The translations under genes and the position numbers were made by a program. The notes below the pieces were generated by a model. That model ran no database searches. It was not told where the DNA came from and saw only the letters and a program-made list of their open reading frames with translations. Below are positions 6,997 to 30,476 of a DNA stretch of 64,000 nucleotides, piece after piece (the first letter of the stretch is position 1; each line of letters starts with the position of its first letter). Source of the DNA: Bryoerythrophyllum caledonicum (Eukaryota; Streptophyta; Bryopsida; Pottiales; Pottiaceae); contig OZ020514.1 of the NCBI GenBank assembly GCA_963971425.1, forward strand, positions 43,375,158 to 43,439,157, in the 5' to 3' direction.

Positions 6997-7005
6997 AACG
7001 TACTC

Positions 7006-8141
7006 TCATTTCTCATCATCCTTCTGAGTCAACACATCTACCAATCCTACCGCACTCCAATTTGTGTGCAAGTGGAAAGGCTGTGTAGCATCTGGACGCC
7101 GCAGTACAGGTGGTGAACCGAGCTTCAGCTTCAAAGTAGCAAACGCCTGCTGCTGCTCCCCTCCCCAAGTCCATGGCTGATCTTTCTCCTTGAGGATAGT
7201 CAACGGCTTGGCAATCAAGCTAAAGCTCTTGACAAACTCGCGATAGTAATTTGCGAGGCTTAAAAAAGCTCTGAGCCGTGACACGTTGATTGGGGCTGGG
7301 ATCTTCTGCACCGCGTCAACCTTTGCCTGCTGCATCCCAAGACCTCCTAGAACAACCATATGTCCCAAGTATGGCAACCGGTCATGGAAGAATTTGCATT
7401 TGCCTTGGTGCAAGCGCAATCCCCACTGCCGTAGCCTCTCGAACACTGCCTGAAGATGCCTCACATGCTCCTCTAGGCTGCTACTAAAAATGATAACATC
7501 ATCAATGTAGCATCAGGCAAACGGTAAAGCAGTCAACACCCGGTCCATAACCCTCGGAACTTAGCGGGTGCGTTCTTCAGGCCAAATAGAAGAAACTCCC
7601 AATGGTAGAGCTGATCTCTCCCATCTAGATCAAATCCCCAGAACGCAGTCTTCACCCGGTCGTCCATCATCAATGGTAACTGGTGGTAACCAGACCGCAA
7701 ATCCACAGTACTAAATACTCTAGCATGTTCCACCGCATCAATCAACTTCTCTGGCGTGGGCATGGGATACCAATCCGACTTGGTCATACGATTGACCGTC
7801 TTATAATCCCCACACATCCGCTTTTCCGTCCAGTTGCCAAAGATGTCCTTCTTTGATGGCATCACCGTGGCACAAGCATACTCGCCGTTAGAGAGCTCAA
7901 TCAAGCTGGCGGCCAACAACTCCTGACAACGAGTCTGAACTCCAACTTTCTCAGAGAGACTAAGCTTGTACGGTTGTCGAAAGATTGGGTGGTCGTCCTC
8001 CAACTGAACGTGAATCGGTTTGCCTCTATAGCCCTCCAAATCATGGAGACTAAAGGCAAAACAACTACGATACAAACGTATAAACGCTCGTACCCTTCGT
8101 GCCTCGGCACCAGTAAGATGTGGCCTCGAATCCAAAGCCAA
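7006..8141 (-). pseudogene. Reverse transcriptase of gypsy copy 1
   Basis: The frame 8141-7533 carries fingers and palm motifs: MPSKKDIFGNW, FSTVDLRSGYHQLPL and FLLFGLKNAPAKF. After a frame change near 7,540 the sequence reads through an in-frame TGA at 7513-7515 straight into CYIDDVIIFSSS (catalytic YIDD at 7498-7509). It continues in frame 7464-7006 with LRLHQGKCKFF, LPYLGHMV and LRAFLSLANYYREFVKSFS. The domain order and lengths fit Ty3/gypsy RT. The same TGA before YIDD is present in copy 2. The enzyme would copy element RNA to cDNA, but the frame here is broken. Confidence 0.92.
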
Positions 8142-8209
8142 TCATTAAATTCCGTGGTCTCCTTCTCCACCGTAGAAGACTCATCGTGTACTAGCACGGC
8201 CGGTGATTG

Positions 8210-8895
8210 CTACTTGGTAGCGGAGAGGGCATTAATGCCCCTAGACTCCTCACTCACGGGATCTACATAAATTCCCGTGTTGTGATGATAAAACCGGGCA
8301 AAGATAGTCTGGGCATCCTCTCGACCAAAAGCCTCGGCCAAGGCTGCAAAGACAGGCTCAGCACGAAGCTCCTCAAGTGCATGCCTCTTCAAACGAAAAA
8401 GCAACTCCGCTTCGTTGATCTCTGTGAGATGTGGCACCGCAAGTGGATATAGTGCGTGCTGGTCCACCAAAATGTCGTAGTTGGTGGTGCTAGTCACCGC
8501 GCACTGGAGAGATACGTGAGAGAATAAAGGACCAGATCCCATGCCGAACATCAACTCCAACGGATGTCGGGTGTAACCCATGGCCTTCTCCGTGCCCCAA
8601 CTGATGTAACAATCGTGAATGAGCAAGGCTCGAGGTCCGAAGCACCTAGATCCAAATCTTGGGCTAGTTGCTTGCCAATCATCACTGGCTGAGCTTCGGA
8701 GTCCAACATAACACAAAGGGGGGTAGCTCGAGTGGAGTTTCCGTCCATACAACCAACCACCATGACTCCGTCATCGTTTACCAAACGTACCACCCCTAGA
8801 TGCATATTACGTTGCTCCCATATGGACCGGGTTGCAACGTCAGACATATAAGCCATTCCAAAGATCAAAGAGTGATCCCCGGAGGATTGCTCCAT
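8210..8895 (-). pseudogene. Retropepsin and downstream spacer of gypsy copy 1
   Basis: Frame 8895-8551 includes LCVMLDSEAQPVMIGKQLA, the active-site region of an aspartic protease in which the expected DSG is DSE (copy 2 retains DSG). A frame change near 8,600 leads into frame 8752-8210. That frame runs GTEKAMGYTRHPLELMFGM, then NYDILVDQHALYPL, then directly AVPHLTEINEAELL. In copy 2 about 1 kb lies between LYPL-like and AVPHL-like sequence, so a deletion junction is placed near 8,440-8,447. The stop at 8210 precedes the RT segment, which restarts at 8141. Confidence 0.8.
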
Positions 8896-9080
8896 AAATG
8901 TGGAAGTGGCATTGGCCTCAAACGTGGAAATAGCCTACGCGGCCAACTTGGCCCGCATTGCTACCAAATCCTCTTCGGTAGGTGGAGCCGTCAATGCCTA
9001 CGACACCTCCAATGATGGCACCTTGCCCTCCAACATACTACCCGCTGATTGAAATACATCGGATGGTTGAAAATTTGGTG

Positions 9081-10718
9081 TCAGAAAGTCCACATCGGCA
9101 AGCACCGGCAACCGCAACACCTTGTACGCCAAGGAATGTACGGCATCCACATGAGTGGAAGAAACTGCTGATACGGTAGTAAAAGGAGGAGCAACACCGG
9201 GAGCATCCGCATCCACAATGCCAAACAACATTGGTAGCCGTGACTGACCAATGTGGTCAGGTAACCCCACGTGGCGTAGACGTCCACTGGTGCAGGTGAC
9301 ACCGCCTGTGTGGTGGTCTGAGCACGAGTGGCAACTGCAGCCACAACCTCCCCAGAAGCACCATACAAATAGGCATCCATGGCTAAGGACAAACCTCAAC
9401 TCTTCATCGGAGCCCGTGCGTCCACTACTTGTCCCAAAGACGCATTCGCACTCAACTTCTTCTCCAACTCCGCCACTTCGACCTCCAAGTCCTTCTCCTG
9501 TGATGAACCCGGCCGCTTCTCCGGGTGGAGAACAAAGTAGTTCTCATCACTATGGCAGGACTTGCCACAATGAGAACAAGTAACCGACTTCTTCCCCTTG
9601 CCCGCAATCTTCTCACCAGACTTGGCCGCCTCGGTCTTGGGCTTCACCTTCCCCTTCTCTGCCCCTTTCTTCTTGGAACAGTTTGGATCCACTTTGATGT
9701 AACCGGGTTCTCCACAAGCCCAACAATGCATAACCTTTTTAGGTTGTGCCTCCGCCAAGCTACATATCGCAATAGAAAGCTTCTTGGACTTGGGAGCGTC
9801 TTTCAATGACGTGACCAAGTCTGTGGCCTCAGACACGCCCAACGCTCTATCAAGCGCTTCCACCTCAGCTTACGCCTGAGCCAAACTAGCGTTGCCATGA
9901 TAATCAAAAAGAAGACCGGAAGTGATCAAGTCCACCATCCTCTTGTCGAACTTGGAGATAAAAATCTTCACAAGTTGGTGCTCCGTGAAGACATCACCTG
10001 CCTCCGCCGCCAACCGCGCCAATCGGGTATACATGGTGCGTGGCGTGTCCTCTTTTTCACGGCGGAAATCTTAGATGTGTTGCATTTGATCACGCCGGGA
10101 TCCCCCATACTCCACCTCCAAGTGCGCCATGAACCGCGCCAGAGGGTCAAAGATTGGTGGCGGTCCGACGGCCACCAATGCCGCTTGCGTGGCCTGGGCG
10201 AAACGCGACATGGCCCCCATACCGAACGCCTCATCTACAAGGGCAATGCCCTTCTGCTTGGAATCCTCACTAGAGGAGACTCCATCCTTCTTAGATTGAT
10301 CGGTAAAGGCCGGAACACGAGCAACGGCACTTTCCTTGAGCGCAGTCACCAACTCCACCCGGTCGTGCCAGTAATCCTCAACTGGACGCAACTCCTCCGC
10401 ATGCAGTACCGACCACCTTCCATAGGTCTGGAGCGCCTCCAACTCCAAATGTTGGGGCAAAAGCGTACTTGTCGTTGAACGACGTTGAACGCTGGCGCTT
10501 CTCCTTCATCCATGTCTGGAAACAAAGCTGCCAATCGGGCAGGGAGATGCCCCCATCCCGACCTAAGAAACAATCATACACAACCTGGCGGTGATCGTCC
10601 TCCATGTCGTCAAACGTGCCCACACTCCAAACTCGAAGCCTACGTATGGTATCCAACGCCGAAATAGGCCCAAAGTCTAAAGCCGATGCACTCTCCGGAG
10701 AATCTGTGAGGGAGAACA
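9081..10718 (-). pseudogene. Gag of gypsy copy 1 with zinc-knuckle remnants
   Basis: The likely N-terminal part is in frame 10656-10378 (TIRRLRVWSVGTFDDM, FQTWMKEKRQR). The central part is in frame 10460-10071 (LELEALQTYGRW, ALKESAVARV). The C-terminal part is in frame 9863-9396: MEALDRALGVSEATD, then CWACGEPGYIKVDPNC, a lysine-rich stretch, and CSHCGKSCHSDENY. The second knuckle matches CX2CX4HX4C except that the final Cys is Tyr. After it comes a Glu/Lys-rich segment, and frame 9392-9081 has DAYLYGASGEVVAAVATRAQ, also present in copy 2. An in-frame TAA sits after QMQHI near 10,070, at the same place as a TAG in copy 2. Gag would form the particle and bind RNA. Confidence 0.85.
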
Positions 10719-11364
10719 GTAATATCGACTTCTTGTACTCACCATAAATAAAATTATCTCGGGTAACTATCTAAAGGGTAAGGGTACGGACGGGCAACCT
10801 ACACCTGGAAAATCACCAAACTATATGCTTTACCAGTTATCACCTCCGGCTAACACAGGTCCAACCACATCCCCCCACATGAAAAGGTCTTGCCAGTCAT
10901 TACTCCGACTTTACCCCTACGATACCCTATCACAAGCTAGCACAACAATAAATGGGGCCACCGGAAAATACCAGCAACAAGCCCACAACACGGGGGAGGT
11001 ACCGTACAAGAATCCAGAAATCCAACCCGGATCCTGTCCCCCAACAACATAAAAGCATAAATGACAAGGGGTCAGAGCCACTGGCACACGCTTGCAGTGG
11101 ATGGCCCGAGTCGCAAACCTGCAAATCAAAGAGAAATATTAGAAGTACTTCACCAAAGTCTATCACTAAGGGAAATAGTGGGAACTTGTCCGCGGTGTTC
11201 AAAAACACAAACCCCCCAATGAAAATGCAATTCTATGGGTGAGAAACGCGACAAACGCCAATCTACTACCAAAATATGATTAAATGACGGAATCCCAAAC
11301 TATAGGTGCAAAAGAATGTTAGTCCAAACCGAGTAACAAATCTTGCAATCCCCTTCCAGAGTGC
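10719..11364 (-). other. Gypsy copy 1 leader between LTR and gag
   Basis: No open frame is supported. A block near 11,065-11,135 (minus strand: CAGGTTTGCGACTCGGGCC) matches 16,007-16,025 in copy 2 with one change. It is preceded by TCTTTGATTTGCAG, a good splice acceptor, and the minus strand has a possible donor GAG/GTAAGAAATA near 11,440. A leader intron is possible but not proven. A primer-binding site complementary to a tRNA could not be identified with confidence. Confidence 0.45.
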
Positions 11365-14958: not shown

Positions 14959-15680
14959 TGTCACGGGACGTGGCGTCGAGGGCCACTCCGTATTGTAGTT
15001 GTAGCGTAGATTACTTTGTTACTAATCTACGTGTGTTTAGGATCAAACGGCGGCACATAGCATTCATCCACTTAGGATTGTATGCGTGTGCGCATAGCGC
15101 CGCACATGTCCTTGACTTAACATCTTTGTCAAATCAGGCTTTGTGAGTGAGTTAGAGAGGGTTAGTGAATTTCTTTGTTTGTAAGTGATGTGATTTCATT
15201 AGTAAAGGCTCCACATTCTTCTATTACTACTTGCACTCGTTGATTCTCTCTTCGTGGCGTGCTAGTCGCTTGACTACCTAGTGATTTGCTATCTATTCAC
15301 TTGACAAAGACCTTCCATTTCCTCCTACTAGATTTCTTATTTTTAAGCTAGAAAATGTGAGAAAAAATTGTAAGAATTCAGAACTATGTTGTAGAGCGCA
15401 TTTAGACAAATCCAATACAACAAATGGCGCTTCAATTCGATGATTTTTGAAGAAATTGTGGGCGGTGAAAGTTTAGAGTGAAGAAGGACAACTGCTGGAC
15501 CTACTACCGACAGTTTCATCCATTTTGCCATTTTTCATCCGTCGGTCGATTTTTCATCCACTGTGGATGAAACTGTAATTTTGGGCATATCCATTTAACT
15601 GAGTCAATATCTTCCAAAATAATTACTATTTTTGGACTTTGACTTCGGATTTGATCTTTTTAGGGGGGTTTCTATATAGA
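14959..15680 (+). repeat. 5' LTR-like region of gypsy copy 2
   Basis: Starts with TGTCACGGG and is the inverted counterpart of 11,365-12,262. TTTCATCC units lie near 15,510-15,565, and the region ends in the TCTTTTTAGGGGGGTTT block. No second LTR of this copy is present in the window, so the boundaries rest on comparison with copy 1. Confidence 0.65.
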
Positions 15681-16138
15681 GTACTTGAGAAACTTTTGAT
15701 TAAAGAGTCTTTCAAAAACCACATTTTTGTGGGTGTTAAAAAAGAAAAAAGAATAGTCTAATCCTTGAAGTTTATTTGTGGAGGCAATTTAGCTTGGATT
15801 TGAGCAAAATTTGCACTCACTTCATGAGAAATTTGCCAAGGAATCCATTTGAATTATTGGATTGGCATTTGGAGTAGATCTTCAGCCCTAAATGATGATT
15901 TTTAAGGGCTGAATTGTGTTTTTAAATGCCAACTTCCATAAATTTCCATAGAACTTCAAGTTTTGAGACTTGGCGAAATACTTTCGAGTGTTTCTCTTTG
16001 AATTGCAGGTTTGCAACTCGGGCCATCCATTGCAGGCGTGTGCCAGTGGCTCTGACCCCTTGTCTTTTCTGCTTTTATGTTGTTGGAGGAGAGGATTAGG
16101 TTTTGATTTTTGGATTCTTGTGCGGTACTACGGACCCC
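15681..16138 (+). other. Gypsy copy 2 leader
   Basis: No gene. The end, TTTGAATTGCAG followed by GTTTGCAACTCGGGCC at 15,999-16,025, matches the copy 1 leader, again with an acceptor-like CAG. The upstream donor seen in copy 1 is not conserved here. Confidence 0.4.
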
Positions 16139-17252
16139 TCCAATTCCAAACTTAGATCAAGAAGAAGCGCCAGCGAACACCGTCGATTAACGACTGCTAT
16201 GGCGTTTGAGCTCTTGCTCCAACATTTGGAGCTGGAGGCCCTTCAGTCATACGGACGGTGGACCATGCAGCACAAAGCATAGTTGCACCCTGTAGAGGAG
16301 CACTAGCGCCAACGTATGGAGTTGATAATTGCGCTCAAGGAGAGTGTGGTTGCCCAACTCTCGACTTCCACGGAGGAGCCCAAGGTAGAAGAGGGTTTCA
16401 TTGGTGAGGACTCCAAGGGCAAGGGCATTGCCGTTGTGACCGAACGGCTGGCATGGGGGCCATGTAACGTTTGGCCGTGGCAACACGTGCAACATTGATG
16501 GCGGTTGGCAATCCGCCAGCCTTCGATCCTTTGACGCAATTCATGGCGTATTTGGAAGTGGGGTACGAGGGATTCAAGCGTGATTAGATGTAGCGCATCT
16601 AGGATTTCGGCCGGAAGAAGGACGATACCCCTTGCACTATGTATACTTGGTTGGCAGAGTTGTCAGCGGAGGCCGGTGATGTATTCACAGAGCGCCTGCT
16701 TGTGAAGATCTTCATCTCCAAACTAGATAAGCGGATGGTGGAGTTGATTAGTACACATCTTCTTTTCCGGTATCACAGGAACGCCACTTTTGCGGAAGCG
16801 TTTGCCAAGGTGGAAGCGCTTGATAGAGCAATGGGCGTGAGCGAGGCCACGGATTTGGTCACAGTGCTGATGGACGCTCCTAAGCCCAAGAAGCTTGCCA
16901 CCGCGATCGGTAGCTTGGCAGAGGCACAACTTGAGAAGGTTGTGTATTGTTGGGCTTGTGGGGAGGCGGGTTACACCAAAGGGGACCCTAATTGCTCCAA
17001 GAAGAAGGGGGAAACACCGTGAAGGCCAAGCCCAAGATCGAGGCGGCCAAGACTGCAGAGAAGGCTAAGGACAAGGGGAAGAAGGCTGTGACATGCTCTC
17101 ATTGTGGCAAGTCTGGCTACAGTGATGATAATTGTTTTGCTCTTCACCCGGAGAAGTGCCCAAGGTCTTCGGTTGCTGAATCAGAGGTTGTGAAGAAACT
17201 TCAGGCCGAGATGGCGCAGCTGAGGAAGGAGATGAGCGCCATGGCTTCATAG
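16139..17252 (+). pseudogene. Gag of gypsy copy 2
   Basis: Protein-like segments run LELEALQSYGRW, MELIIALKESVVAQL and, in frame 16,639-17,022, MYTWLAELSAEAGDVFTERL, MVELISTHLLFRYH and CWACGEAGYTKGDPNC. Then frame 16,992-17,252 has CSHCGKSGYSDDNC followed by ALHPEKCP. In the second knuckle the His is Tyr but the last Cys is kept, the opposite of copy 1. Several TAG codons stand where copy 1 has sense codons, for example two after KRD near 16,590 where copy 1 has Gln codons. The segment ends with an Asp/Glu/Lys-rich helix-like stretch. Confidence 0.85.
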
Positions 17253-17258
17253 GGGCAA

Positions 17259-18201
17259 GTGGCGGACACACAACTTCCGGTGAGGGGTCACAGCTCATCT
17301 TCAGCCCTAGATTGCTATTTGTATGGCGCTTCAGAGGAGGTGGTGGCAGCAGTTGCCACTCGTGCTCAGACTATCGTACAAGCGGTGGCATCTTCTCTCT
17401 CTATGTCAGGGGATAGTGGCTGTCCACGCCACACGAGATTGTCCAGCACCAGTAGTCAGTCTTGGTTACCTCTTTTGTTCATCATCGTGGATGCGGCAAC
17501 TTCTAGTGCCGCTCCGACTTCGATGGATGGGATAATCCCACCAGTTTTCTCTAGTCATAAAGATGCCGTACACACCTTGGCGTATTAGATGTTGGAGTTG
17601 CCAATGTTTGCCGGTGTGGAATTTCTTACACGCAATATTTGACCCTCTAGTGTATTCCACCTGGCGGGTAGTATATTAGAGGGCAAGGTGCTTATGTCGG
17701 AGGTGTCGGAGGCAGTGACGGCTCCATCCAATGAGGAGGATTTGGTGGCAATGCGGGCAAAGTTGGCGGCGTAGGCCATTTCTGCGTTTGAAGCATATAC
17801 CACTTCCACACCTGTAGAGTAGTCCTTCGAGGGTCAGTCCTTGATCTCTGAAGTGGCTTATTTGTCTGACATTGCGGCCCGGTCAACACGGGAGCGACGC
17901 AGTGTGCTACCATGAGCGGTTTGCTTGGTAAACGATGACAGAGCTATGGTGGTTGGTCGTACAGACGGCAATTCCATCCGATCTACCCCCCTCCTTGTTA
18001 TGATGGACTCTGGAGCTCAACTAGTGATGATTGGCAAGCAGCTAGCCTAGGATTTGGATCTATGTGCTTTGGACCTTGAGCCTTGCCCATGTACAATTGT
18101 TACATTGGTGGAGGGCACAGAGAAGGCCATAGGCTACACCCGACATCTGTTGTAGTTGATGTTCAACGTGGGATCTCAACCGATGTACTCTCAGGTATCT
18201 C
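17259..18201 (+). pseudogene. Gag-pol linker and retropepsin of gypsy copy 2
   Basis: The linker has DCYLYGASEEVVAAVATRAQ as in copy 1, then a stretch with several TAG codons. The protease active-site region at about 17,990-18,050 reads PLLVMMDSGAQLVMIGKQLA followed by TAG. The catalytic DSG is intact, whereas copy 1 has DSE. The frame then continues with EKAIGYTRHLL and ends at the piggyBac insertion. The protease would cleave the Gag-Pol polyprotein. This copy is interrupted by at least six stops. Confidence 0.8.
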
Positions 18202-18205
18202 TTAA
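18202..18205 (+). other. Left TTAA target-site duplication of piggyBac
   Basis: TTAA directly precedes the left terminal inverted repeat, and an identical TTAA at 27,929-27,932 follows the right one. In copy 1 the same position reads TCCA, which fits a single target TTAA in copy 2 before insertion. Confidence 0.9.
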
Positions 18206-18221
18206 CCCCTAACAGCCCAAG
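18206..18221 (+). repeat. Left terminal inverted repeat of piggyBac
   Basis: CCCCTAACAGCCCAAG, matching the reverse complement of 27,913-27,928 at 15 of 16 positions. Confidence 0.9.
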
Positions 18222-20247
18222 TGTACGTGGGACGTACGTTTTGGGTTTTGGGCATGTATCTGTGAGTGGAAAAAAACTTCATTTTTTATAAAAATTTCTC
18301 ACGACATTGTCTTTGATGACATCTTTGTGGGGCACTTTTCAAAAATGTTATTCAATTTTTTATTCAAAAGTTATTAACGTTCAAAGGTGAAAATGGGGAG
18401 TCTGGGTTGTAGGGGCAGCCATATGAACCAATGGAATGTTAGGACAAATGTGGGGCAGTATAATGGATTAGAAAGGGCGAGGAAAGGGGGTAGCTGAAAT
18501 CATGGGTGGGAGGGAAGAGAAGACCAAGTCTGCGTTCTTGAGCCCGAAGTCCAAGAAATTTCAAATTTAAAATAATTTTTTTAAATTAAAAAAAACATTA
18601 GTCACAAGTATATTAGCAACGTCCAGAAAGTACACGTTTCACGAAGTCAACATACACAACTGTACTCGCACAAGAAGACGACATCTAGAGAAAGCTACAC
18701 CGTTTCGTGAATATAGTGTAGACCAAACTATTTGAAATTCCAAAACTAATTAAAAATTTACATGCAATTATTGACTGACAAACACTTGCTTGAGAACAAA
18801 TACCCAATCAGAACTTGGCATGCACATGCTTTGATGGAAATTAGTGTGAGTGATCTACATCTATAATCCCTCTACACTATATTCAGTGTTTAGTGTAGTA
18901 AGCGGCAACAACATGGTCCGAGCTGCTAGTAACTCTGGTGAATCAGAGCCATTTCTCAGCTTCCTAGTAACCAAGTCAACAGAACCCGAACAGAACATCT
19001 GAAGCTACGCCGACATTCAAACTCGACTGAGGTGACAAATTCAAAGTCGACTGAGGTGATCCGCAGGCCGGGGAATACGCCTGAAGGACGAACAAGGATG
19101 TTTATGACATGGTGATCAAAATCAGCTCGGCCATTCGTGCTGTTGGTGTCGAGCCGGTGAGTTCCTCCACCTACTCCAACCGTACTCAAATAATTCGGCA
19201 CTCATTTTCTACCCAGCTTCAAAAGAAACACCAAAAACAAAAAAGAGAGTCTAACCCTCAGACGGACAGCACACCTAGTGAGGTACAGTAACTGGCAAGA
19301 CTATGTGGTTCGACGTTGACAGAATAAACAAGACTTGAGACTGAGTCACAGAAAACAATGTGGAAGTTGTCTATGTGGTTCAATACCTCCGAGGAGTGGC
19401 ATTGACAAGACTACAGGACTGCATACAAGGAGAGTGGGGTCAGTGCATTCAGCCGCACTCTCATGCCAGCTGAGTGCATAAATCTGCGACGTCGGAGTCC
19501 TATGTGATCAAGCGTTCAAACCATCGCACTAAAAGCTTATAAACATGCGCCCGGATCATCTTGCTCACAGAGGCGCAGGTACTCAATATTGCTTACAGAG
19601 GCGCAGGTACTCGAGCGTGAGCGCGGGCTCATGTAACGCACCTTCGCGGGCGAGCAGTGAGGGATTCTCGAGCAGCGACTCCTCTTCCCTCGACGCCGGT
19701 TTGTGAGATGCTCTCGTGGACCAGCCACTGGATGTTGCCACTGGAAGCGCTTTCCTTCCTTCTCTTTCGTTAACTTCTCAACAAGTGCTTCCCTGAAATA
19801 GGATTAAACAAGCTGAAAATCAATACCGGCATCACAAATCTAATTCTAGGATTTCGACAACAAACACCAGCTACAAGAACATGCAGATCTGAAGAAATCA
19901 GCTTCACCACATCAAATGTCAAACTGGACCTTGTCAAGTTGGACCGTGTCAAACTGGACCTCGTGAAATGTATCGCGTGGGAAGACGTCGTCGTCCTGCA
20001 AGCCGGATACAATGCATGAGTTTACAATGCTACTTCAAGACTCAATAATGCTACTTCAACACTTCCTCTTCTACACACACAAGCATCACCTATACAATCT
20101 TTGTTACCATTGTATCACAAGGATCATTCATGCATTGTACTGCGACATCCATAGTGGGAAGAACGGCATTTTGCTAGCATATCTAAGGAGCAAGAGCTGC
20201 AATATTGGTGGGAGGTATTGCAGATGTCAGAGTATTATTGAGGAGGC
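18222..20247. other. piggyBac left interior without a supported gene
   Basis: This arm holds a MITE at 18,695-18,898 and several small duplications: ACTCGACTGAGGTGA-like units at 19,020-19,060, a GCTCACAGAGGCGCAGGTAC-like pair at 19,561-19,612, and a TCAAACTGGACC trio at 19,918-19,962. Short open frames at 18,956-19,728 look like chance. The stretch from 18,940 to 19,760 is more GC-rich than its flanks, which may mark an older inserted sequence. Confidence 0.5.
18695..18898 (+). mobile_element. MITE copy A
   Basis: A 204-bp non-coding element with terminal inverted repeats: left CTACACCGTTTCGTGAATAT, right reverse complement CTACACTAAACACTGAATAT, both continuing AGTGTAGA. Related copies are at 23,633-23,760 (partial, same orientation) and 60,646-60,853 (inverted). 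The superfamily is uncertain. The CACTA-like inner end is suggestive only, and no clear target duplication is seen. Confidence 0.7.
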
Positions 20248-21222
20248 ATGGAGACAATACAAGCAGAAGAAGATATGTATACTCCTGATGAGGTAAGTGT
20301 GGAAGACTTGTGTTGGCCTCCAGAGTTGTTGCACACCATTGATTGCAATAGTGAAAACAAATCCAAGAGAAAGAGATTACACATTCATGAGACGTCAAAC
20401 ATGGAGGAGGAAGGACTTGGTGTGGAGCGGGAGGAAGAGGGGAATGTAGGAGGTAATCGCAACATGCAGGACGTCGCCACTTCGTCTCTACGTACTGTTG
20501 ATAGGCTGGGCGGAACTTTCGTAGTGGGGGCCGCCGATGGGCTGGTGGGAGCCGTTGATGGGGTGGCGTGGGCCGTTGATGGGCTGGCTGGCGAAACTGC
20601 GCAGGGAGATGCACCGACGCAAATTGGCGCAGGGAGTGGGCCACTCGGGACAGGGAGTACGCCTGGATTAGTCGGGACAGGGAGGCCAGGATCAGTCGGG
20701 ACAGGGAGGCCGGGATTAGTTGGGTCAGGGAGGCCGGGATTAGGACTCGGTTTAGGGTTTGAGGCAGGGAGTGGGGAAGTGAGCGAGAGGGAGATGTTGG
20801 GCCGGGGCAGGGAGGGTATCGGCGGTGGGTTGGGTATTGGGGGTGGGTTGGGGAATATCGTTGTAGGGGAGGGGGGTATCGGGGGGGGAAGAGGGGGTAT
20901 GGAAGGTGGGACGGGGGGTATTAGGGGAGGGAGGGGGGGTATTAGGGGAGGGAGGGGGGGTATTAGGAAAGGGAGGGGGGGTATTAGGGGAGGGAGGGGA
21001 GGTATTAGGGGAGCGAGGGGGGTATTAGGGGAAGGAGGGGGGATATTAGGAGAGGGAGGGAGGATATTAGGAGAGGGAGGGAGGAAACCGGGGGAGGGAT
21101 TAGGGATATCGGGGGAGAGAGGGGAAGGATTAGGAGGCTTAGGGGGAGAGGAAGGATTGACTTTGGGAGGGATAGGGGAGAGATTGGGTTGGGGGTTGAA
21201 GGGGAGATTAGGGAGGTTATAG
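20248..21222 (+). CDS. Gly-rich N-terminal frame upstream of piggyBac transposase
   Basis: This is a 324-residue frame beginning METIQAEEDMYTPDEVSVED. After an acidic, basic and mixed start of about 80 residues it becomes a long Gly/Arg/Ile repeat with units such as GGRGGIR, encoded by GGGAGGGAGGGGGGGTATTA. The last part overlaps, in another frame, the start of the acidic frame 21,189-21,638. It may be a Gly-rich N-terminal extension of the transposase joined by a frame change in the G-runs, or repeat DNA that happens to be open. The first 80 residues, with an acidic DEVSVED segment, look more like real protein than the rest. Confidence 0.4.
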   Translation: METIQAEEDMYTPDEVSVEDLCWPPELLHTIDCNSENKSKRKRLHIHETSNMEEEGLGVEREEEGNVGGNRNMQDVATSSLRTVDRLGGTFVVGAADGLVGAVDGVAWAVDGLAGETAQGDAPTQIGAGSGPLGTGSTPGLVGTGRPGSVGTGRPGLVGSGRPGLGLGLGFEAGSGEVSEREMLGRGREGIGGGLGIGGGLGNIVVGEGGIGGGRGGMEGGTGGIRGGRGGIRGGRGGIRKGRGGIRGGRGGIRGARGVLGEGGGILGEGGRILGEGGRKPGEGLGISGERGEGLGGLGGEEGLTLGGIGERLGWGLKGRLGRL

Positions 21223-21240
21223 GAGAAATTGGGGGGGCCG
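20840..21240 (+). repeat. G-tract minisatellite with G-quadruplex potential
   Basis: The plus strand has dozens of G3-G8 runs separated by one to four bases, with a core unit of about 21 bp (GGGAGGGAGGGGGGGTATTA) at 20,920-21,060 and looser units on both sides. Many overlapping four-run groups fit the usual G-quadruplex pattern. Strand asymmetry is extreme: the minus strand is C-rich. Runs of seven or eight G are also likely places for sequencing-length errors. Confidence 0.85.
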
Positions 21241-21601
21241 GGGGAAGATTGGTCTCTTCATTTGAGGGAGACATACCTCTAGCGGACGAGAATATTGACG
21301 AAGATATTAGTATCATCGATATGAGCATTCCATATTATGAGGATTCTAATGTTATTGAAGACGAGGGATATGCTGAGGATGGAATGCATGAGCGGACAAT
21401 TCCACTAGATTTTGGATATATTTTGCAACAAAATATTGATGGAGATAGAGTGAACATTCCAATTTTGCATGATGACAGTGATGATATTCACGAGAGTTCG
21501 AGTGAGGACAATGGTACAATTCCAAGCGAAGCGCATGAAGAAAGCATAAACATCTATATCGAGAGTCAACATGGGATGATAATTTTTCAACCTATTCTCT
21601 T
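21189..21601 (+). pseudogene. Acidic N-terminal region of piggyBac transposase
   Basis: This frame has many Asp/Glu: DIPLADENIDEDISIID, YYEDSNVIEDEGYAEDG, HDDSDDIHESSSEDNG. An acidic low-complexity N-terminus is typical of piggyBac transposases. Reading shifts to the core frame near 21,560, where the sequence TGGGATGATAAT in the other frame gives STWDDNFSTYSLMPMDFDG. A one-base indel is the simplest explanation. Confidence 0.6.
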
Positions 21602-23115
21602 ATGCCGATGGATTTTGATGGTGTTTCGGGGCCTATAGTAGCATGGCGTTTCTTCCCATCATTCATGCAATTGTTTCATTTATTTTGGCCCGAGGTTTTG
21701 CTATGGAAAATCATTATTGAAACAAACCGTTATGCTCGAAGTACAAACTCTTCTGGGAGATGTATTGGCGGACGCAATTGGGAAGATATTGACATCCTAT
21801 GTTTGAAAGTGTTTTTGGCCATATGTTTGTATATGGGTATGAAAAGACAACCAAATATGCGAAGTTATTGGTATAAGAAAGATTCAATTTTTCATTGTTC
21901 TACTATATCGAACCTTATGACAAGAACCCGATTTTTCTCAATTATGAGTTGTTTACATGTTACCAATGCAAATACCTATGTGAGAAATAGGGAGCTCCCT
22001 GGATATGACAAGTTAGGACAAGTTCGATGGCTCGTAATTTCTATACGGGATAATTGTAAAAGAGTTTGGAATTTAGGAAAATTTTGCACGGTGGATGAAA
22101 TGATGGTTAGGTATAAGGGTATATATTGTCCATTGCGTCAATATATGCCTCGAAAACCGCCAAAGTGGGGCATTAAAGTATGGTGTTTAGCATGTTCACA
22201 TACAAAGTTTGTGTGGAATTTTGAGGTATATTGTGGAAAAACATCCGTTGCGATCAATCTTCCTCCAACTTCACGAGGAGAGCCACAACTAGCTCACAGA
22301 GTGGTTTTAGATTTGGTTCAAGACATAGAACAAAGAGGCCGTGTTTTGGTGATGGATAATTATTTTACAAGTATTGGGTTATTTTTGAGTTTATTAGAAC
22401 GTGGTATTTATGCGACAGGTACAATTAGATCTAATAGAGTTGGCATTCCTAGTATCTGTAAAAACACTAGAATCTTTGCAAGAGAGCGAAAAGGTATTTT
22501 TGCATGGAGAATGCATACATCACGGAAAATTGCATGCGTCATATGGAAAGACAAGAAACCGGTTATTTTACTTTCCACACATGCATTGCCTCGAGTAACT
22601 CCCGGTTTACCGGAAGTTACAGTTCCTCGACGAAACGGAGCCGTTCGTGAAAACATCACGACATCACCAATTCATTTAGAATATACTACACATATGAGAG
22701 GTGTAGACGTCGCTGATCAATTGAGGGCGTCATATGCTACTCAAGATCGGACACATAAGTGGTGGCATAGGATTTTTTTTTCTTGTTGGATATGACATTG
22801 GTAAATATGTATGTTATATATGTAGAAAAATGCAAATCTTGCTCCCCACCTAGAGATCCGCTGACACATTTACAGTTTATGGAGGAAATGTGTAAGGCAT
22901 TGACCAAGAATTGACAACGTAGAGACGTGCGAGAAGTACTTTCAATTTGCGATCGAGGATCCGTATGTTATCCGGCAACATCAGAAAATCCTCGTGGACT
23001 ATGTGTTATTTGCAAAGCGCGGGGTTGTACTTATTGTCCAACATGTGGAAATAGATTCATGTGTTTCAAGAAGGGATGTTTCAAAATATGGCACGAGCGC
23101 CTCAACCGTAGATAG
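21602..23115 (+). pseudogene. piggyBac transposase core and C-terminal Cys-rich domain
   Basis: Frame 21,602-22,795 matches the DDE_Tnp_1_7 layout. PIVAWRFFPSFMQLFHLFWP starts the domain. CTVDEMMVRYKG holds the first catalytic Asp, GRVLVMDNYFTS the second, and MRGVDVADQ the third. KWWHRIFF marks the C-terminal end of the core. The frame stops after a run of nine T at 22,773-22,781. With ten T it would continue as FLLDMTLVNMYVIYVEKC, the usual continuation. That second frame has one TGA at 22,912-22,914 and then a Cys-rich domain at 22,975-23,090 (CVICKARGCTYCPTCGNRF, then CFKKGC), as expected for the DNA-binding tail of piggyBac. All three catalytic Asp residues survive, and only the T-run indel, the TGA and the upstream frame change break it. 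The enzyme would excise and insert at TTAA. Confidence 0.92.
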
Positions 23116-23632
23116 ACAAATGTCTAATATGATGGTTCATAGTATATGCCAATTTATGTGTTTTTAGATACATAAATAAAGTATGTATATTGTTCATTTA
23201 CTTTCCATGTCAAACAAATATGAGTTTGTATATGTCAAATAAATGTGAGTTTATCCATGTCTAACAAATATGAATTTATCTATGTCTAACAATTGTCTAT
23301 GTCTAACAAATATCAATGTCTAACATATATGTTTCATGCATATTAGTCATTTATATAACATATTATTAATTTGTATTTGTAATTCACATATTTCAATTTG
23401 TAGCAAATTGTTGTTAGCATTTATGGAATGAAATTGGTTTTTTAAGTGAATAATTTTATTCCTCACTAAATACTTTATCTTGTAACATAAGTGATTTTAG
23501 ATAATCAAATATAATTTGCCACATTTTAGATACAAATAGTTCAAATTCTAACATATAGAAAATCAATAGGGGAATAAGAAGTCATGTAAAAGCGTAAAGA
23601 AATGTGGTTTTGATGGTAATTACAAAATGGGA

Positions 23633-23760
23633 CACCAAACACCGAATATAGTGTGGAATAGAGTAGTTTGAGTTTCTAAACTAGCTGAATATTTACATTC
23701 AATTAGCGACAACCTCACACTTGCTTGAAAATGAATACTAAGCTCAAATTAGGGTTATAT
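23633..23760 (+). mobile_element. MITE copy B (left part only)
   Basis: CACCAAACACCGAATATAGT opens this copy. The following bases match MITE copy A through the CACTTGCTTGAAAA region. The right half and terminal repeat are missing. Confidence 0.6.
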
Positions 23761-25330
23761 ACTTCGGCAATTAACATTTGTAAATTTATTTCATTTAAAT
23801 TAAAAACTCATGAAATTTTGTCCACATCATCTTATATAAGTCTAGAAGAAGATCCTACAATTACATTTTCACTACATTCATCTTTGCAAATCAATCAATG
23901 AAGTAGAGATTGATCTAAAATGGCTAGGGCCTTTTGAGGTTATTTCATGTACATTCTCTTTTCACATTTAGATTATTCGAGTGTGATGCAATTATGAATT
24001 ACAAAATAAATCAAAGTATAAATTATGACAAGGTAGTCGAACATGCTTCTAATCACCTATCAGAACATTTGGAACGCATTTTTCATATTTTCTATTTTTG
24101 AATCAACCTTGCATCTAAAGTGTTGAAGGAGTCTTGCAAAGGATACATATATTTCAAGCATAGTTATTGTTAGAAATTCTCATATGTGTATAAGTTTTAC
24201 TTATACGTGAAACTAAGGGTTCCTAGGTATTATGGACATATTCATCAAGAATGATTATTTTTCAAATTTGGAAAAAAAATGAGTGTCTACCCTCAAGCTG
24301 TTCCATACTACTAATCCTTTGTCTAGTGGGCATGATTAGTGGTGGACTGAATAGACTTTATGGACTTTATGTACGTCGGCCTCCTCAAAATCCAGAGTTT
24401 TTCTTCCTTTTATGAGATTTTATATTTCTAAAGAACACTTCAACAATTCACAAAAGTGAATCACATAATTAAATGTACTTTGAACAAAATTAAAATGCAA
24501 AATAGACATAGAGGAAAATTAACCCCTAAACGTCCCTAATGTCGAAAAACGACATTTTGGATGAGCTCGGGGAAGTTCAAATGGCTGCCATTTTTTCATC
24601 TGAAGTCCGTTTCATTCGTTTGTTTTTGGAAGTTACTATAGACCGGGTGTAGTTTACTATGGAGTTATTTCCTTTACTCCAAGCGTTACTGTGATTTTTG
24701 TAGGGAGGTTTTAGATGGAGGAGGTTTTTGTTTTGAAGCAAGATTTGCAATTTTTGGTAAAAATTTTGGCTGCCATTTTGAGTTGGGACAGTAGGGATTA
24801 GTGCGAAGATGAGGAAAAAAATTATGCTGCCCTTGGTGGTTCAGTTCAAGAAAAGTGTGTTTTTAGAAAGATAAGTAATTAGAGCTACTAATTACTATGA
24901 CAGGGTGGTTGGACAACCTCCTAAACGGGCTCCCTCATCAAATAGGGCAGATCTCAAGACAAGGAGGGGGAAGGACAAAGTGGCATTCAAAATTCAAATG
25001 TGCACATAAACTACCTTCTTATGCATTCAAAAAACCAAGACATACAATACATTTCAACATTATTGAGCCACCATTTCAACATCTCAGCAATCAAATTGCA
25101 AGATTCAAATCACAACCAACACCATCCCACCACCATCACGTAATAAATGCACATGGATTTCAAAATTCAAAATTCCAAACTCATGTACATGCTACATCAA
25201 ATTCTAGAGGATTCCATTTACAACTTGGGCTCAAATCAATTTGCAAACATCCAACAGTTGAAATTTGAATCAGTTCTTCTAAACTGGGTTGCATACTGAA
25301 TTCCATACTATGCCCCATCCGCACTAACTG

Positions 25331-25494
25331 GGACCCCAATAACAATAATTAGGGTCCCCAACAACAGCTAAAGGGGCCCCAACAACAGTGGCTGGGGCCC
25401 AAGCAACAGTCGTTGGAGCCCCCAGCAACAGTCGTTGGGGCCCCCAACAACAGCTGTTGGGGTCTCAACAACAACTGTTGGGGCTCCTACAACA
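25331..25494. repeat. Palindromic GC-rich minisatellite
   Basis: About seven imperfect units of 18-28 bp built on CAACAGTCGTTGGGGCCCC. Each unit is itself nearly palindromic around AACAGCTGTT and GGGGCCCC, so the array can form strong hairpins on both strands. It is followed by a pyrimidine-rich microsatellite. Confidence 0.75.
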
Positions 25495-25498
25495 ATAT

Positions 25499-25562
25499 CT
25501 TCGTCTTTTTGTCTTTGTCTTTTTGTCTTTGTCTTTTTGTCTTTGTGTTTTTGTCTTTTACT
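25499..25562 (+). repeat. TTTGTC/TTTTTGTC microsatellite
   Basis: Alternating CTTTTTGTCTTTGT units, about five copies, directly after the palindromic minisatellite. Confidence 0.8.
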
Positions 25563-25796
25563 TTCAACACGAAATTGAACATACTTTTACATTTTAATAA
25601 TTTTAGAAAAAAAATTATATTTTTATAAATTCAAACTGATACTTACATTGTAAATTTATTATTACAGCAAAAAAAGTGAAAGCTTGTAGAAGTTAGCTAT
25701 AAATACTATTTACAAAAAAATATATTGTTATTGTATAGAATAAACACATATAATTATCAAAATATATCAAGATATTTATTGCCTTATATTCTGAAG

Positions 25797-25985
25797 ATGG
25801 CTGAGCTTGTACAACTGAGTGCAAAAAAACCTAGAGTAGGACAAGTTATTGCCCTAAATTTTATAGAAGATCAGCAAATCCTGGAGTTGGTATACGATTC
25901 AAAGAGTAGAGGTTGTAAATTTGTAGGGCACACCAACAAAGCATTTGACCGGTTATATGCCATACCTTGTAGAAAAAGATTTTGA
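25797..25985 (+). CDS. Small open frame of unknown function in piggyBac
   Basis: A 62-residue frame starts MAELVQLSAKKPRVGQ and ends PCRKRF. It has mixed, protein-like composition (LNFIEDQQILELVYDSKSRG) in an otherwise AT-rich arm. No domain is recognised and no splice site or promoter is evident. It could be an exon remnant or chance. Confidence 0.25.
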   Translation: MAELVQLSAKKPRVGQVIALNFIEDQQILELVYDSKSRGCKFVGHTNKAFDRLYAIPCRKRF

Positions 25986-27912
25986 CCACAAAGATTGAAC
26001 GATTATAGTGTTTGAAGTAGGAAAATTGGTTCATTTTCTTCCCTACATCAAGTGGATTACAAAGCTTTGACCTCACTTGATGTCCAAATTTTGCACTAAA
26101 GAGGGTCTAAATTCAATACCATCATCTTCAACATTATATTATTTTTTTGTACACCAATTTCTAAAAGTAAAAAAAGGGTGTAGCATATTCAAAAAAATTC
26201 TGCAAGGAGTGGAGGTTTTAGAATTGTCATTTCACATTTAATAACAACTAAAGTAAAAAATATTACAAGGTAGTGGAACATGCTTTTGATCTCTTATTAG
26301 AATATTTTCAACACGTTTATCATATTATGTATCTAAGGGATGTTGCAAAGAATATATATTTTTAGCATAGTTATTGTTGAAATTTCTTTTGTGTATAAGT
26401 TTTTTGTGTAGGTGCAACCATGAGTTTCTAGGTACAATGAATATATTCATCAAACTTGAATATATTGCAATTTTGGAAAAACTGTACAAGGTGTCTACCT
26501 CAAGAGTAGTTCCACACTACTAATCATTTGTTGTGTGGGCATCGACTTAGTGGTGGAATGAATAGAGACTTTATTTATGTCCATGTACATTAGAATCCGG
26601 AGCTTTTCTTCTTTTGATAAGACTTTATTTTCCAAAGAACACTTCACCAATTCACAAAAGTTAAATAGTTAATCAAATTTAGTTTGAACAAATTCTAGAG
26701 AGAAGTAATAATTCAAAATAAACTTAGGGAAGAATTTAAATATGAAATTATATGGGAAATACAAAAAGAATTATGTAGCAAATATATATCTTCAATTTGT
26801 TATGATAAAATAGTAGAATTTTAAAATTATAGTAAAAATTATTTATCAATTTGTCACGGTAATTTAGTAATAATAAAATATTTTTAAAGTGAAAAGAAGA
26901 AGAAGAAAATGAGCTAAAAAAGCAGAAAGGCAAAAAATCGAACACCATTCAACAAATGAAGTTAAAATTTATAAAAAAAAAACCAAAAACCAAAATCAGT
27001 ACGAAATAGGCAGGTCGCCCCCTCTCACAATGATTTTTTTTAAAAAAAAATTTAAAAAAATTTAAAAAAAAAAAAAACAATTTTATGTTTTTCCAAAGTG
27101 CCTACGCCAGCCAGCTGCGGCGCATCCTTGCGGATCGCCACCTGGGCGTGGCGGGCCCTCCTCCCGATGGCCAGTGTGGCGGCGGGGCCCCCGGAGATAA
27201 GGTTTTTAATTTATTTTTTTATTGATTATTCTGAAGACCCTTCTAACATTTCAAGTCCTTTCCAGGAAGACCCTGTCTTCATGTGGGGTGGGTGAATGAC
27301 GTGGCCCTTGATATTGTGAAGAGTCCCCAATTTCAAGCGCTGCCCTTCCCCATAATGCTTCATTTATTCAATAAATTCATGAAAATGAGAGATTTTACTA
27401 ATTTTAGTCGCTATTTTTTCTAAAGTTAGTAGAAAAATAAACTTGAAGTTCCCACCGTTGGGATTCTCAAATGAAACAATTTGTATAAAACAAACAATTT
27501 CATATCACTTATGTAGTAATTGTCATCATTTCGTGACCTCTTTCACTAATTTTTAAATTTCTACATCTATCACCCCTCGAATTGACCTCAAATTTTGCCC
27601 AAAAATAGCCAACAACATATGGGTCATACTGGTAAAAGATTTGATCACACTTTAGTGTTAAAGTTAGAAGATATGCTAAGTCAAAGTGGGCTGACCTTGT
27701 CGGGCAAGGGGTGAAAAAAACTTCTCTTTGCACTTCAAACACTATAATCTTTACATCCGTACGGTGGATGGCAGCCAAACTTTTTCCGTAAGTTTATATG
27801 GATGTCTTTTTAAAGATCTTACGGTTGAAAGCCTAAATTTAGACATGAAAAATAGATTTCGTTGCCACTTATTGATTGACGCAGTTTTGGAGTGTTTCAT
27901 GAGGAAAATTGC

Positions 27913-27928
27913 CTTGGGCTTTTAGGGG
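27913..27928 (-). repeat. Right terminal inverted repeat of piggyBac
   Basis: CTTGGGCTTTTAGGGG, the reverse complement of the left repeat with one mismatch, followed by TTAA at 27,929-27,932. Confidence 0.9.
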
Positions 27929-27932
27929 TTAA

Positions 27933-28380
27933 GTACGCTGTTACTGGCGCCACCAACTACAACATTTTGGTGGATCAGCAGGCGCTTTATTCCCTCGATT
28001 TTAGAGTGTATAATTGGACAGAGGAAGCCTAGATTAGGCCTAGGTGGTCTGCCGGTGATGGCAAAAAGGAGCTTATTCCGGTTGTCTTCGTAGCTGACGC
28101 AGTGACTTCCATGGCAGATGCAATGTTTGGGTGCAGTGCTTTGACATCCAATTTGCCATGTGGTTCTACGCTTTTGGAGGAGACATATGCTTTTATGTCA
28201 GAGGTAGCGGAATCACGTGAGCAGAGATCAGTGGGGATCCTTGCACGCAATTGCAAGGATCTTCTTTCTCCATAGGGAACTCAGTTGGAGCTCACACGCC
28301 TCAGTCATAAGATTGTGGAAGCTATTGATGCTCCACTGCGTTCAGTGGACTCTTCATCGCTATTGTTGGCTCGCACTATT
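27933..28380 (+). pseudogene. Spacer between protease and methyltransferase in gypsy copy 2
   Basis: Starts directly after the TTAA with VTGATNYNILVDQQALYSL, the same sequence copy 1 has just before its deletion. It continues as a protein-like stretch: AGDGKKELIPVVFVADAV, MFGCSALTSNLPCGSTLLEE, YAFMSEVAESREQRSVG. TAG stops occur near 28,030 and 28,274. A helical segment LSHKIVEAIDAPLRS leads into the methyltransferase motif I. The function of this spacer is unknown. Confidence 0.65.
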
Positions 28381-29010
28381 CAGTGGCGACCACCGGATGA
28401 GAGTTTTACCCTTGAGGAGTTATTTTTCGGTATCGGTATGGGGCTTGCGGCTGTGTTGGAGGTCGGGCTCAAGTACAATGGTATATCCATGTGGATAGTG
28501 GCTTTGCAGCCAATCGGCTGCTTACCATTACATTCAACATCTTCCGGCGTTGTATCCGGAGCAATTATCACCTTTTGCGATTCCAGGGTGTTTTGGCATG
28601 TTGCCACGTGATGTGACGTTGATCAGTGAGGATGATCTTCGCCCGATTAGGTCACGTGGACTTGGTGATTGGCGGATGGCTTTGCCAAGACCATTCATGG
28701 GCGTTGGTTTCACTCGGGGGGCGTTTCCCACGTTGATGTGCTACTCAGGGTCTTTTACCTTTACGACATGCGGTCTGGGCATGGTTTGGGATTCTTCTTC
28801 CCAATCTTACAAGGAGCCTTGTGTTGATGAGAGAGAGCAGGCGATATGCTTTTTGACAAGCACCACCGCCGCACTAGATCTTTCTGAGGGCGAGCGTCGT
28901 TACTTGTTGGGTCAAGCCTTTGACCTCAACACCCTTGTTTGGGTTTGTGGCCTTAGTTTCGCTGTTCAGCGCCGTTTGAGTGACCATCTACGCATGCTGG
29001 GGGCAGACTC
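28381..29010 (+). pseudogene. C5 cytosine DNA methyltransferase remnant carried by gypsy copy 2
   Basis: Three frames together show C5-MTase landmarks in the right order. Motif I (SAM-binding FxGxG): LEELFFGIGMGLAAVLEVGL at 28,411-28,470. A following segment reads SPFAIPGCFGMLPRDVTLI. Motif IV: VDLVIGGWLCQDHS at 28,656-28,697, where the usual PCQ is LCQ but the catalytic Cys is kept. Then RGAFPTLM, a target-recognition-like start, near 28,715. Last come motif IX/X-like CVDEREQAICF and GERRYLLGQAFDLN near 28,820-28,930. The stretch between motif IV and RGAFPT is far too short, so motifs V-VIII, including the ENV motif, are deleted, and two frame changes occur. It lies between protease and RT, as in retrotransposon-borne methyltransferases reported in charophytes. 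It would methylate cytosine in element or host DNA. This copy must be dead. Confidence 0.78.
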
Positions 29011-30300
29011 TGATGGTCAGGGGGCAGCGGTGCCATATCTCACAAAGATCAAGGAAGCAGAGTTGTTTTTTCATTTGAAGAGGCATGCAACTGAAGAGCT
29101 TCGTGCTCAACGTGTCTTTGCAGCCTTGGCCGAGGACTTTGGTGCAGGGGATGCCCAAGATTTCTCTCCAGTTTTATCATGACAACACGGGAATTTATGT
29201 GGATCTTGTGAGTGGGGAGTCTAGTGGCATTAATGCCCTCTCTGCTACCAAGTAGCAATCACCGGCCGTGCTGGTGCACGGTGAGTCTTCTACGGTGGAG
29301 AAGGAGACCACAGAGTTTGATGATTGGCCTTTGGATTTGAGGCCACATCTTACCGGTGGCGAGGCACAATGGGTATGAGCGTTTATACGTTTGTATCGTA
29401 GTTGTTTTGCCTTTAGTCTCCATGATTTGGACGGCTATAGAGGCAAACTAATTCACATTCAGTTGGAAGACAACCACCCGATCTTTTGACGACCGTACAA
29501 GCTCAATCTTTCTACGAAAGTTGGGATTCAAACTTGTTGTCAGGGGTTGTTGGCCGCCAGCTTGATTGAGCTCTCTAACGACGAGTACACTTGTGTCACG
29601 GTTATGCCATCAAAGAAGGATATCTTTAGCAACTAGACGGAGAAGCGGATGTGTGGGGATTATTGGCTGGTCAATTGCAAGACCAACTCAGACCGATACC
29701 CATTCCCACGCCAAAGGAGTTGTTTGATTCGGTGGGCCACACTAGAGTATTTTATACTCTAGATTTGCGGTCTAGTTACCACCAATTACCATTGATGGTG
29801 GATGATCGAGTGAAGACTGCACTCTAGAGAGTTGATGAGAATGAGAGAGATCAACTCTATCATTGAAAGTTTCTTCCATTTGGCCTCAAGAATGCACCCG
29901 CTCAGTTTGAAAGGGTGATGGACCGGGTGTTGACCGGTTTACCGTTTGTCTGATGCTACATTGATGATGTTATAATTTTTAGTAGCAACCCACAGGAGCA
30001 TGTAGAGCATCTTTAGGCAGTGTTTGAAAAGTTACGGCAGTGGGGATTTCCTTTGCACCATGGTAGGTGCAAGTTCTTCCTCGTCCTGTTGCCATATTTG
30101 GGACATATGATTGTTCTAAGGGGTCTTGGCGTGCAGCAAGCCAAGGTGGATGCGTTGGAGAAGATTCCTTCCCCAACTGACGTGTCACGCCTTCGAGCTT
30201 TTCTTGGCTTGGAAAATTACTATCGCCGATTTGTCAAGAACTTTAGCTTGATTGCTAGGCCATTGACTATTCTCACGGGAAAGGATCAGCCATGCACTTG
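29011..30300 (+). pseudogene. Reverse transcriptase region of gypsy copy 2
   Basis: The start, VPYLTKIKEAELFFHLKRHA, matches copy 1, as does the NTGIYVD...SGINALSATK block that ends in the same stop before RT. RT motifs then follow. The frame has TGA at 29,376 and 29,487, TAG at 29,634, 29,825, and TGA at 29,864, all at codons that are sense in copy 1. A TGA at 29,951-29,953 precedes CYIDDVIIFSSN exactly as in copy 1. Frame 30,020-30,301 is open: FEKLRQWGFPLHHGRCKFF, LPYLGHMIV, LRAFLGLENYYRRFVKNFS. A TGA at 30,299 ends it where copy 1 has Trp. Confidence 0.9.
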
Positions 30301-30301
30301 A

Positions 30302-30476
30302 GGACGGGAGCACAGCAAGCGTTTGCTTTTTGGAGCTGAAGCTTGGTTGAGCGTCTCTGGTGCGGCGTCCGGATGCTACACAAGCCTTTCAGTCGCACAC
30401 AGACTGGAGTGTTGTGGAATTGGGGGCTCTGTTGACTCAGAAGGATGATGAGGGACGGAAGTACGTTGTGGATTGA
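30302..30476 (+). pseudogene. Truncated RNase H start of gypsy copy 2
   Basis: RPDATQAFQSHTDWSVVELG then LLTQKDDEGRKYVVD correspond to the connection/RNase H start in copy 1. Similarity ends at about 30,476, where minus-strand sequence of another gypsy element begins. The junction marks a deletion, or insertion of the second element with loss of the rest. Confidence 0.75.

Follow-up and report, generated by a model that had tools for sequence, protein, structure and literature searches.

A fossil methyltransferase in a moss Ty3/gypsy retrotransposon, and the sister copies that keep the domain open

The window analyzed here is a stretch of 64,000 nucleotides from the moss Bryoerythrophyllum caledonicum (assembly GCA_963971425.1, contig OZ020514.1, positions 43,375,158 to 43,439,157 of the forward strand), and it holds a decayed copy of a Ty3/gypsy retrotransposon with the remains of a C5 DNA methyltransferase between its protease and its reverse transcriptase (RT). 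A first-pass annotation, made from the letters alone, had proposed such a retrotransposon-borne fossil, and this is supported by what follows. As a whole, the findings are best explained by a DNMT3-type remnant of a moss Ty3/gypsy element, for which we propose that a leaky stop sets the enzyme dose and that the enzyme methylates the element's own DNA. We give this reading a probability of roughly 0.8; the self-methylation in it is a hypothesis.

The identity of the remnant is best seen by comparison with a sister copy, L010 (contig C7), whose open reading frame 1 (ORF1) is uninterrupted. The protein of that frame (P0003) matches the window colinearly by tblastn from 27,922 to 29,164 (E 2e-87 and 1e-75), and at the DNA level the two copies are 85-86% identical in two aligned blocks, 777 and 1,777 bp long, that a single gap of about 395 bp separates. 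In the usual numbering of C5 methyltransferase motifs, this gap removes motifs V-VIII, as had been claimed. An FxGxG motif I is present, slightly downstream of the position first given (28,411); motif IV with GGW(L)CQ and the IX/X-like motifs were read where expected (Table 1). The reading frame changes between motifs I and IV. The LCQ in place of PCQ, which sister copies retain, is a C-to-T change in the proline codon that spared the catalytic cysteine codon (TGC, 28683-28685). Because the window alone, among 150 scored genome matches, matches its ORF across the gap, and because the match at C9:24,255,859, which extends 19 residues beyond the deletion junction, nonetheless sits in a full frame of 1,353 amino acids, no shared deletion is seen. 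Deletion and truncation, frameshifts, C-to-T decay, and a piggyBac-like element nested in it have put the window copy out of action, in keeping with its description as a fossil.

Searching the 437-Mb genome with PF00145 gave at least 123 matches (all scored, from 1,055 first-look candidates). The top match is a gene of bacterial type and all others that were read are of the element type, with open frames of 1,353-1,371 amino acids in many rows and 1,710 in one. With the window remnant as the query there were at least 150 matches, the window included (all scored, from 2,345 candidates), nine of them in open frames of exactly 1,353 amino acids. We distinguish two families, named here A (with subfamilies A1 and A2) and B, which are 54% identical in the methyltransferase domain; the window copy belongs to B. 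Open sister copies with ENV and PCQ, of the kind that the first-pass annotation had suggested looking for, do exist, and the three ORF1s scanned for what they encode at this position score PF00145 there (3.3e-12, 2.6e-13, and 6.6e-14), leaving no sign of a different domain. Our survey of the domain covered 54 copies (58 stretches), 35 of which have it full length and open, a share that overstates the open fraction, given that the stretches came from PF00145 hits and that most of the 20 family A stretches were picked for long open frames; L019/L020 and L023/L024 count as fragments only since the boundary of the fetched stretch cuts the domain. Dropping L003 and L037 (motif I missing, signs of frameshift) left 33 for the selection and composition analyses.

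Better-preserved relatives are laid out as repeat A, ORF1, UAG CARYYA, ORF2, then repeats B, A, and B. ORF1 encodes Gag, a zinc knuckle, protease, and the DNMT3-type methyltransferase; ORF2 encodes RT, RNase H, a DDE-type integrase, and a PHD finger. In protein P0002, RVT_1, RT_RNaseH, Integrase_H2C2, and rve follow each other in one frame, which is the Ty3/gypsy order. The PHD finger after the integrase (PF00628, E 2.3e-9) is common to family B by alignment (L012, L021).

Sequence and predicted fold both place the catalytic domain nearest DNMT3 and point to a DNMT3-type enzyme with unrearranged motif order; the profile search gives 67 bits for DNMT3, 36 for HaeIII, 31 for HhaI, and 18.5 for DNMT2. 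Two plant types were considered and rejected. DRM enzymes have a rearranged order, with motifs VI-X before I-V, whereas the sister ORF1s keep motif I, motif IV, ENV, AHRPR, and the LLGQ stretch in this order. Chromomethylases (CMT) combine a chromodomain and a BAH domain with the methyltransferase, and neither had a Pfam match at E <= 0.01 in the five element proteins scanned. The domain is under purifying selection, with a dN/dS between A1 and A2 of 0.041, beside 0.048 for RT and 0.252 and 0.387 for the segments on either side of it. The catalytic cysteine and glutamate are unchanged in 25 of 25 rows spanning several lineages.

ORF1 and ORF2 lie in one frame and are separated by a single stop. 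At all 23 junctions found, and in the dead window copy, TAG is followed by CARYYA, which reads CAACCA in the 11 family A copies and CAATCA or CAGTCA in the 12 family B copies. Type I readthrough of plant viruses uses UAG CARYYA (PMC5382211; this and the other papers cited are represented here by part of their text), and the moss junction has this type I motif, as in tobacco mosaic virus. The junctions were collected by similarity to L009 and L010 (at most 12 mismatches in 42 bases), so that more diverged ones escape, and subfamily A2 supplies only 1 of the 23. Because these copies share ancestry and similarity was the means of finding them, the independent weight lies with the two families, whose codons after the stop differ and yet both conform to the motif. 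Should the stop be leaky, the methyltransferase would be a Gag-side product and the ORF2 enzymes the minor one. Among 138 database proteins examined, 32 read Gag-protease-methyltransferase and end after the methyltransferase, an arrangement known from protein sequences alone.

Instead of the ordinary arrangement of long terminal repeat, internal region, and long terminal repeat, four of six copies have the split direct repeats A-coding-B-A-B; the fetched stretches of the other two do not reach the 5' end. At the 3' end all six have B-B. The outer ends read TGTC...GACA, and 4-bp target duplications (CCTC, AGCA, and GTGC) flank all three copies that were read. DIRS elements use a tyrosine recombinase and make no target duplication; the moss elements have an rve integrase core and do duplicate their target. 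The split repeats of DIRS elements are thus carried by an element with a DDE-type integrase. The inner B-A junction, GACAGCTGTC, looks like joined cDNA ends and may be used in reverse transcription. No TGG of a tRNA primer site was seen by eye in the first ~20 bases past the 5' A repeat, in one copy per family.

Marchantia, Calypogeia, Sphagnum, Closterium, and metagenomes supply related proteins (one search gave 53 hits and a second 271, with sources among the 120 listed). In 12 of the 138 proteins examined the order is RT, RNase H, methyltransferase, integrase, PHD finger. For the trees, 27 candidates had both domains, 22 passed the length cut, and 20 were used together with three moss rows; P0058 and P0225 were excluded for their long branches. 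Over these 23 rows the same main groups appear in the methyltransferase and RT trees: moss with Marchantia (support 100/98 for the methyltransferase and 100/99 for RT), family A closer to Marchantia than family B is (95/91 and 98/94), and a single group for the protease-methyltransferase-RT type (99/99 and 100/100), with weak support at the deepest forks. It follows from this agreement that the domain has travelled with the element at least since the split of A and B. Relatives in IMG/VR amount to 12 loci, with best segments 23-37% identical. One further protein, P0201, named a bacterial DNA cytosine methyltransferase and drawn from a metagenome-assembled genome of Candidatus Obscuribacterales, shares 55% identity with the domain of the moss elements; to judge by the sequence, that genome may hold moss-type DNA.

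The mechanism we propose is as follows. Most ribosomes would stop after the methyltransferase, which would be made at the Gag dose and outnumber RT on entering the particle. It would methylate the element's new cDNA or new insertion, either in the particle or in the nucleus. The PHD finger could help the integrase to select chromatin according to the H3 tail state. Together, writing methylation and choosing a site would put new copies in tolerated, quiet chromatin.

Composition offers possible footprints of such activity. In the methyltransferase region CpG is 0.56 and CWG 1.23 for A1, compared with 0.96 and 0.59 for A2 (9 and 13 copies). Along the element, A1 is low in CpG in all coding segments (0.25-0.61) with a leader at 0.95, and A2 is low in CWG in six of seven segments (0.34-0.69) with CpG from 0.46 to 0.97; CWG in the window at large is 0.58-0.75, about the level of A2. 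This opposite depletion in one genome, with A1 CpG-poor and A2 CWG-poor, is seen in the coding regions of L009, L010, and L011. Family B has a strong CWG loss confined to the methyltransferase, a pattern that methylation decay would not explain. Among transitions, CHG exceeds CHH threefold within A2, there is no CG excess within A1 (0.98), and both are raised within B (1.75, 1.64). Because the copies of one subfamily are one lineage, these footprints should be taken as a lead and not as a result. C-to-T changes of the window copy relative to L010 affect 19-23% of CG, 18-22% of CHG, and 8-10% of CHH sites (CG and CHG about twice CHH), and those of the second gypsy copy in the window 13%, 9%, and 6%, the trace that plant CG and CHG methylation would leave.

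Four other explanations deserve consideration. The thought that chance alone produced the motifs, in retrotransposon sequence that has decayed, can draw on the window's own open frames, neither piece of which (2/2) matches any Pfam family at E <= 10; for this copy by itself, the absence of a PF00145 match is an outcome that the first-pass annotation had named as refuting. We regard it as practically without a chance, given colinear homology to an open copy whose domain scores PF00145 and the predicted DNMT3 fold of the domain in the related family A copy L009; the DNA alignment to L010 and the tblastn homology of P0003 rule it out. An enzyme of bacterial or viral restriction-modification type, in place of DNMT3, seems improbable. 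The motif IV of the elements is PCQG, the bacterial form, where animal DNMT3 and plant DRM have PCND or PCNN; HaeIII and HhaI come next in the profile search; and a true bacterial-type gene (L001) is present in the assembly, all of which must be set beside the lead of DNMT3 in that same search.

A host DNMT3 might also have been captured and kept by chance, as a passenger with no role for the element. The window's second gypsy copy lacks the domain and many copies are decayed, but that domain-less copy is decayed itself, and a passenger would sit poorly with a dN/dS as low as that of RT between far looser neighbors, with catalytic residues that never vary, and with two trees that agree; we hold this to be very improbable. 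Unlikely, in our judgment, is an enzyme whose main substrate is RNA or the host genome and not the element's cDNA, for example one that places 5-methylcytosine on the element's own RNA or methylates host silencing loci in trans. Action in trans would be open to a product at the Gag dose, de Mendoza et al. (2018, PMC5890265) discuss consequences for the host methylome, and the composition tests give no clean self-methylation; against this, the DNA enzyme DNMT3 is the nearest in both sequence and predicted fold, the RNA enzyme DNMT2 scores far lower in the profile search, and the position beside RT in one polyprotein plan favors cDNA as the substrate.

The favored reading as a whole has its own difficulties, and the following points weigh against it. 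Besides the silence of the window's frames in Pfam, Gag and protease are matched weakly, under the Pfam cut-offs. The place inside DNMT3 is suggested by similarity, with trees that hold no plant DNMT3, DRM, or CMT and in one of which, unrooted, a single DNMT3A fragment has a very long branch joining another long branch. Ordinary host CG/CHG methylation fits the C-to-T decay of dead copies equally well, and the composition tests are mixed, given the A1 leader that is not CpG-poor, the B loss limited to one domain, and the A1 transitions without CG excess. The gypsy DNMT of the alga Klebsormidium nitens was without activity in yeast, a result called inconclusive (PMC5890265).

A bolder generalization, which we consider unlikely, is that a complete epigenetic kit travels with the gypsy elements of bryophytes and streptophyte algae, with a DNMT3 writer made at the Gag dose through a leaky stop and a PHD reader on the integrase product, and that subfamilies have diverged in the methylated context, A1 leaving a CG footprint and A2 a CWG (CHG) one within a single moss genome. 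A DNMT-carrying gypsy of this kind is already known from a charophyte, as the first-pass annotation stated; for dinoflagellates it named copia, where PMC5890265 has LINE and DIRS elements and PMC12344493 (2025) writes 'LTR Copia and DIRS'. The titles and abstract openings returned by searches of Creative Commons-licensed papers report no DNMT-carrying gypsy in mosses or liverworts. In the available portions of PMC5890265, PMC6338049, PMC12344493, PMC6453930, and PMC5382211 there is likewise no description of the elements of mosses and liverworts, of their leaky stop, or of their PHD finger. Land plants too host mobile elements with their own enzyme of a DNA-methylating type: one moss genome has more than 100 scored matches, and proteins of the same kind occur in Marchantia, Calypogeia, and Sphagnum. 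Bryophytes, one of them a laboratory model, are therefore hosts in which to ask why an element carries a silencing-type enzyme: the leaky stop yields a prediction about dose, and the subfamily contrast one about methylation context.

Table 1. Features of the gypsy copies and the nested element, in window coordinates
Feature	Position	Strand	Basis
DNMT3-type methyltransferase domain remnant, two frames, internal deletion	28387..28957	+	tblastn of P0003, DNA alignment to L010
Motif I remnant FFGIGMG (sister copies: FAGIGTG)	28423..28443	+	sequence reading, tblastn
Motif IV remnant IGGWLCQ, Pro to Leu	28668..28688	+	sequence reading, tblastn
Deletion junction, ~395 bp gone (= L010 5790-6183), motifs V-VIII removed	28701..28703	+	DNA alignment
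Motif IX/X stretch DEREQ...LLGQAFDL, DEREQAICFLTSTTAALDLSEGERRYLLGQAFDL	28826..28927	+	sequence reading, tblastn
5' part of the methyltransferase-bearing gypsy copy: A repeat starting TGTCACGGG, leader, Gag, first protease part	14959..18205	+	
piggyBac-like element inside protease	18206..27928	.	
3' protease part and spacer before methyltransferase	27929..28386	+	alignments, tblastn
Recoding-type stop TAG CAATCA between methyltransferase ORF1 and RT ORF2	29253..29261	+	
RT and start of RNase H, with stops and frameshifts; copy ends truncated	29256..30471	+	
Second copy, same gypsy family	5719..11304	-	alignments

The second gypsy copy lost its whole methyltransferase to a 1.43-kb deletion at 8440/8442. 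The piggyBac-like insertion measures 9.7 kb, has TTAA on both sides (18202-18205 and 27929-27932) and end repeats CCCCTAAxAGCCCAAG, and contains an open transposase frame of 418 amino acids (21539-22792; PF13843, E 1.7e-68), a family that we take to cover piggyBac transposases.

Other observations concern the assembly. L001 (G000:C14:16014858-16018817) is a full-length bacterial-type C5 methyltransferase (PF00145, E 2.4e-62) with a G+C of 0.63 that adjoins a frame resembling an IS transposase within a 22-Mb contig; contamination, a misjoin, or gene transfer would account for it. The assembly contains two differing moss plastomes, L025 (G000:C821) and L026 (G000:C894), with matK 69% identical. 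The matK of C894 is 93.3% identical to a sequence in ENA, 92.7% to Cinclidotus, and 92.3% to Barbula. A nuclear copy of part of matK, on C14, matches the C894 plastome at 91% DNA identity and C821 at 77%; by these sequences the host is a Pottiaceae-like moss, and the C821 plastome probably comes from a contaminant moss. Near a family A element, L011 (7411-8499, minus strand) has a nuclear piece of chloroplast rpoB that stays open for 363 codons, with a PDB match to plastid RpoB (E 6e-180).

Among known systems, KnitGypsy-Dnmt3 of K. nitens (PMC5890265) shares gypsy pol domains, a DNMT3-type domain, purifying selection (Ka/Ks < 0.2 there, 0.04 for A1-A2 here), and split, DIRS-like repeats (Fig. 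4c legend) with the moss element, which is likewise a gypsy combining these repeats with such a domain. The hosts differ, an alga and a moss, and the methyltransferase lies in the Pol polyprotein ORF there, whereas here it precedes a UAG CARYYA stop, together with Gag and protease; the moss element has a PHD finger after its integrase, and a word search of the main text of PMC5890265 finds no 'PHD'. These differences are drawn against the description of KnitGypsy-Dnmt3, not its figure or sequence, and some may be only apparent; the named hits listed from the protein searches do not include the K. nitens sequence. SymbioDIRS-Dnmt3 and SymbioLINE-Dnmt of Symbiodinium also have a DNMT inside a retrotransposon, and the former shares the DIRS-like repeats, but they rely on a tyrosine recombinase or a LINE endonuclease and not on a DDE-type integrase; two SymbioDIRS DNMTs methylated CG in yeast (PMC5890265).

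Database gypsy proteins of the RT-RNase H-methyltransferase-integrase-PHD order (P0047, P0048, P0050, P0054, P0055, and others) have gypsy pol, a related methyltransferase, and, as in the moss elements, a PHD finger after the integrase; they differ in placing the methyltransferase between RNase H and integrase, and in both trees the protease-methyltransferase-RT type is a supported group separate from them. Animal DNMT3A and DNMT3B resemble the moss enzyme in the fold of the catalytic domain (predicted here), motif order, and catalytic residues, and differ in motif IV, which is PCND there and PCQG in the moss elements. The chromatin-reading module, too, sits elsewhere: the moss element bears its PHD finger on the integrase product and not on the methyltransferase.
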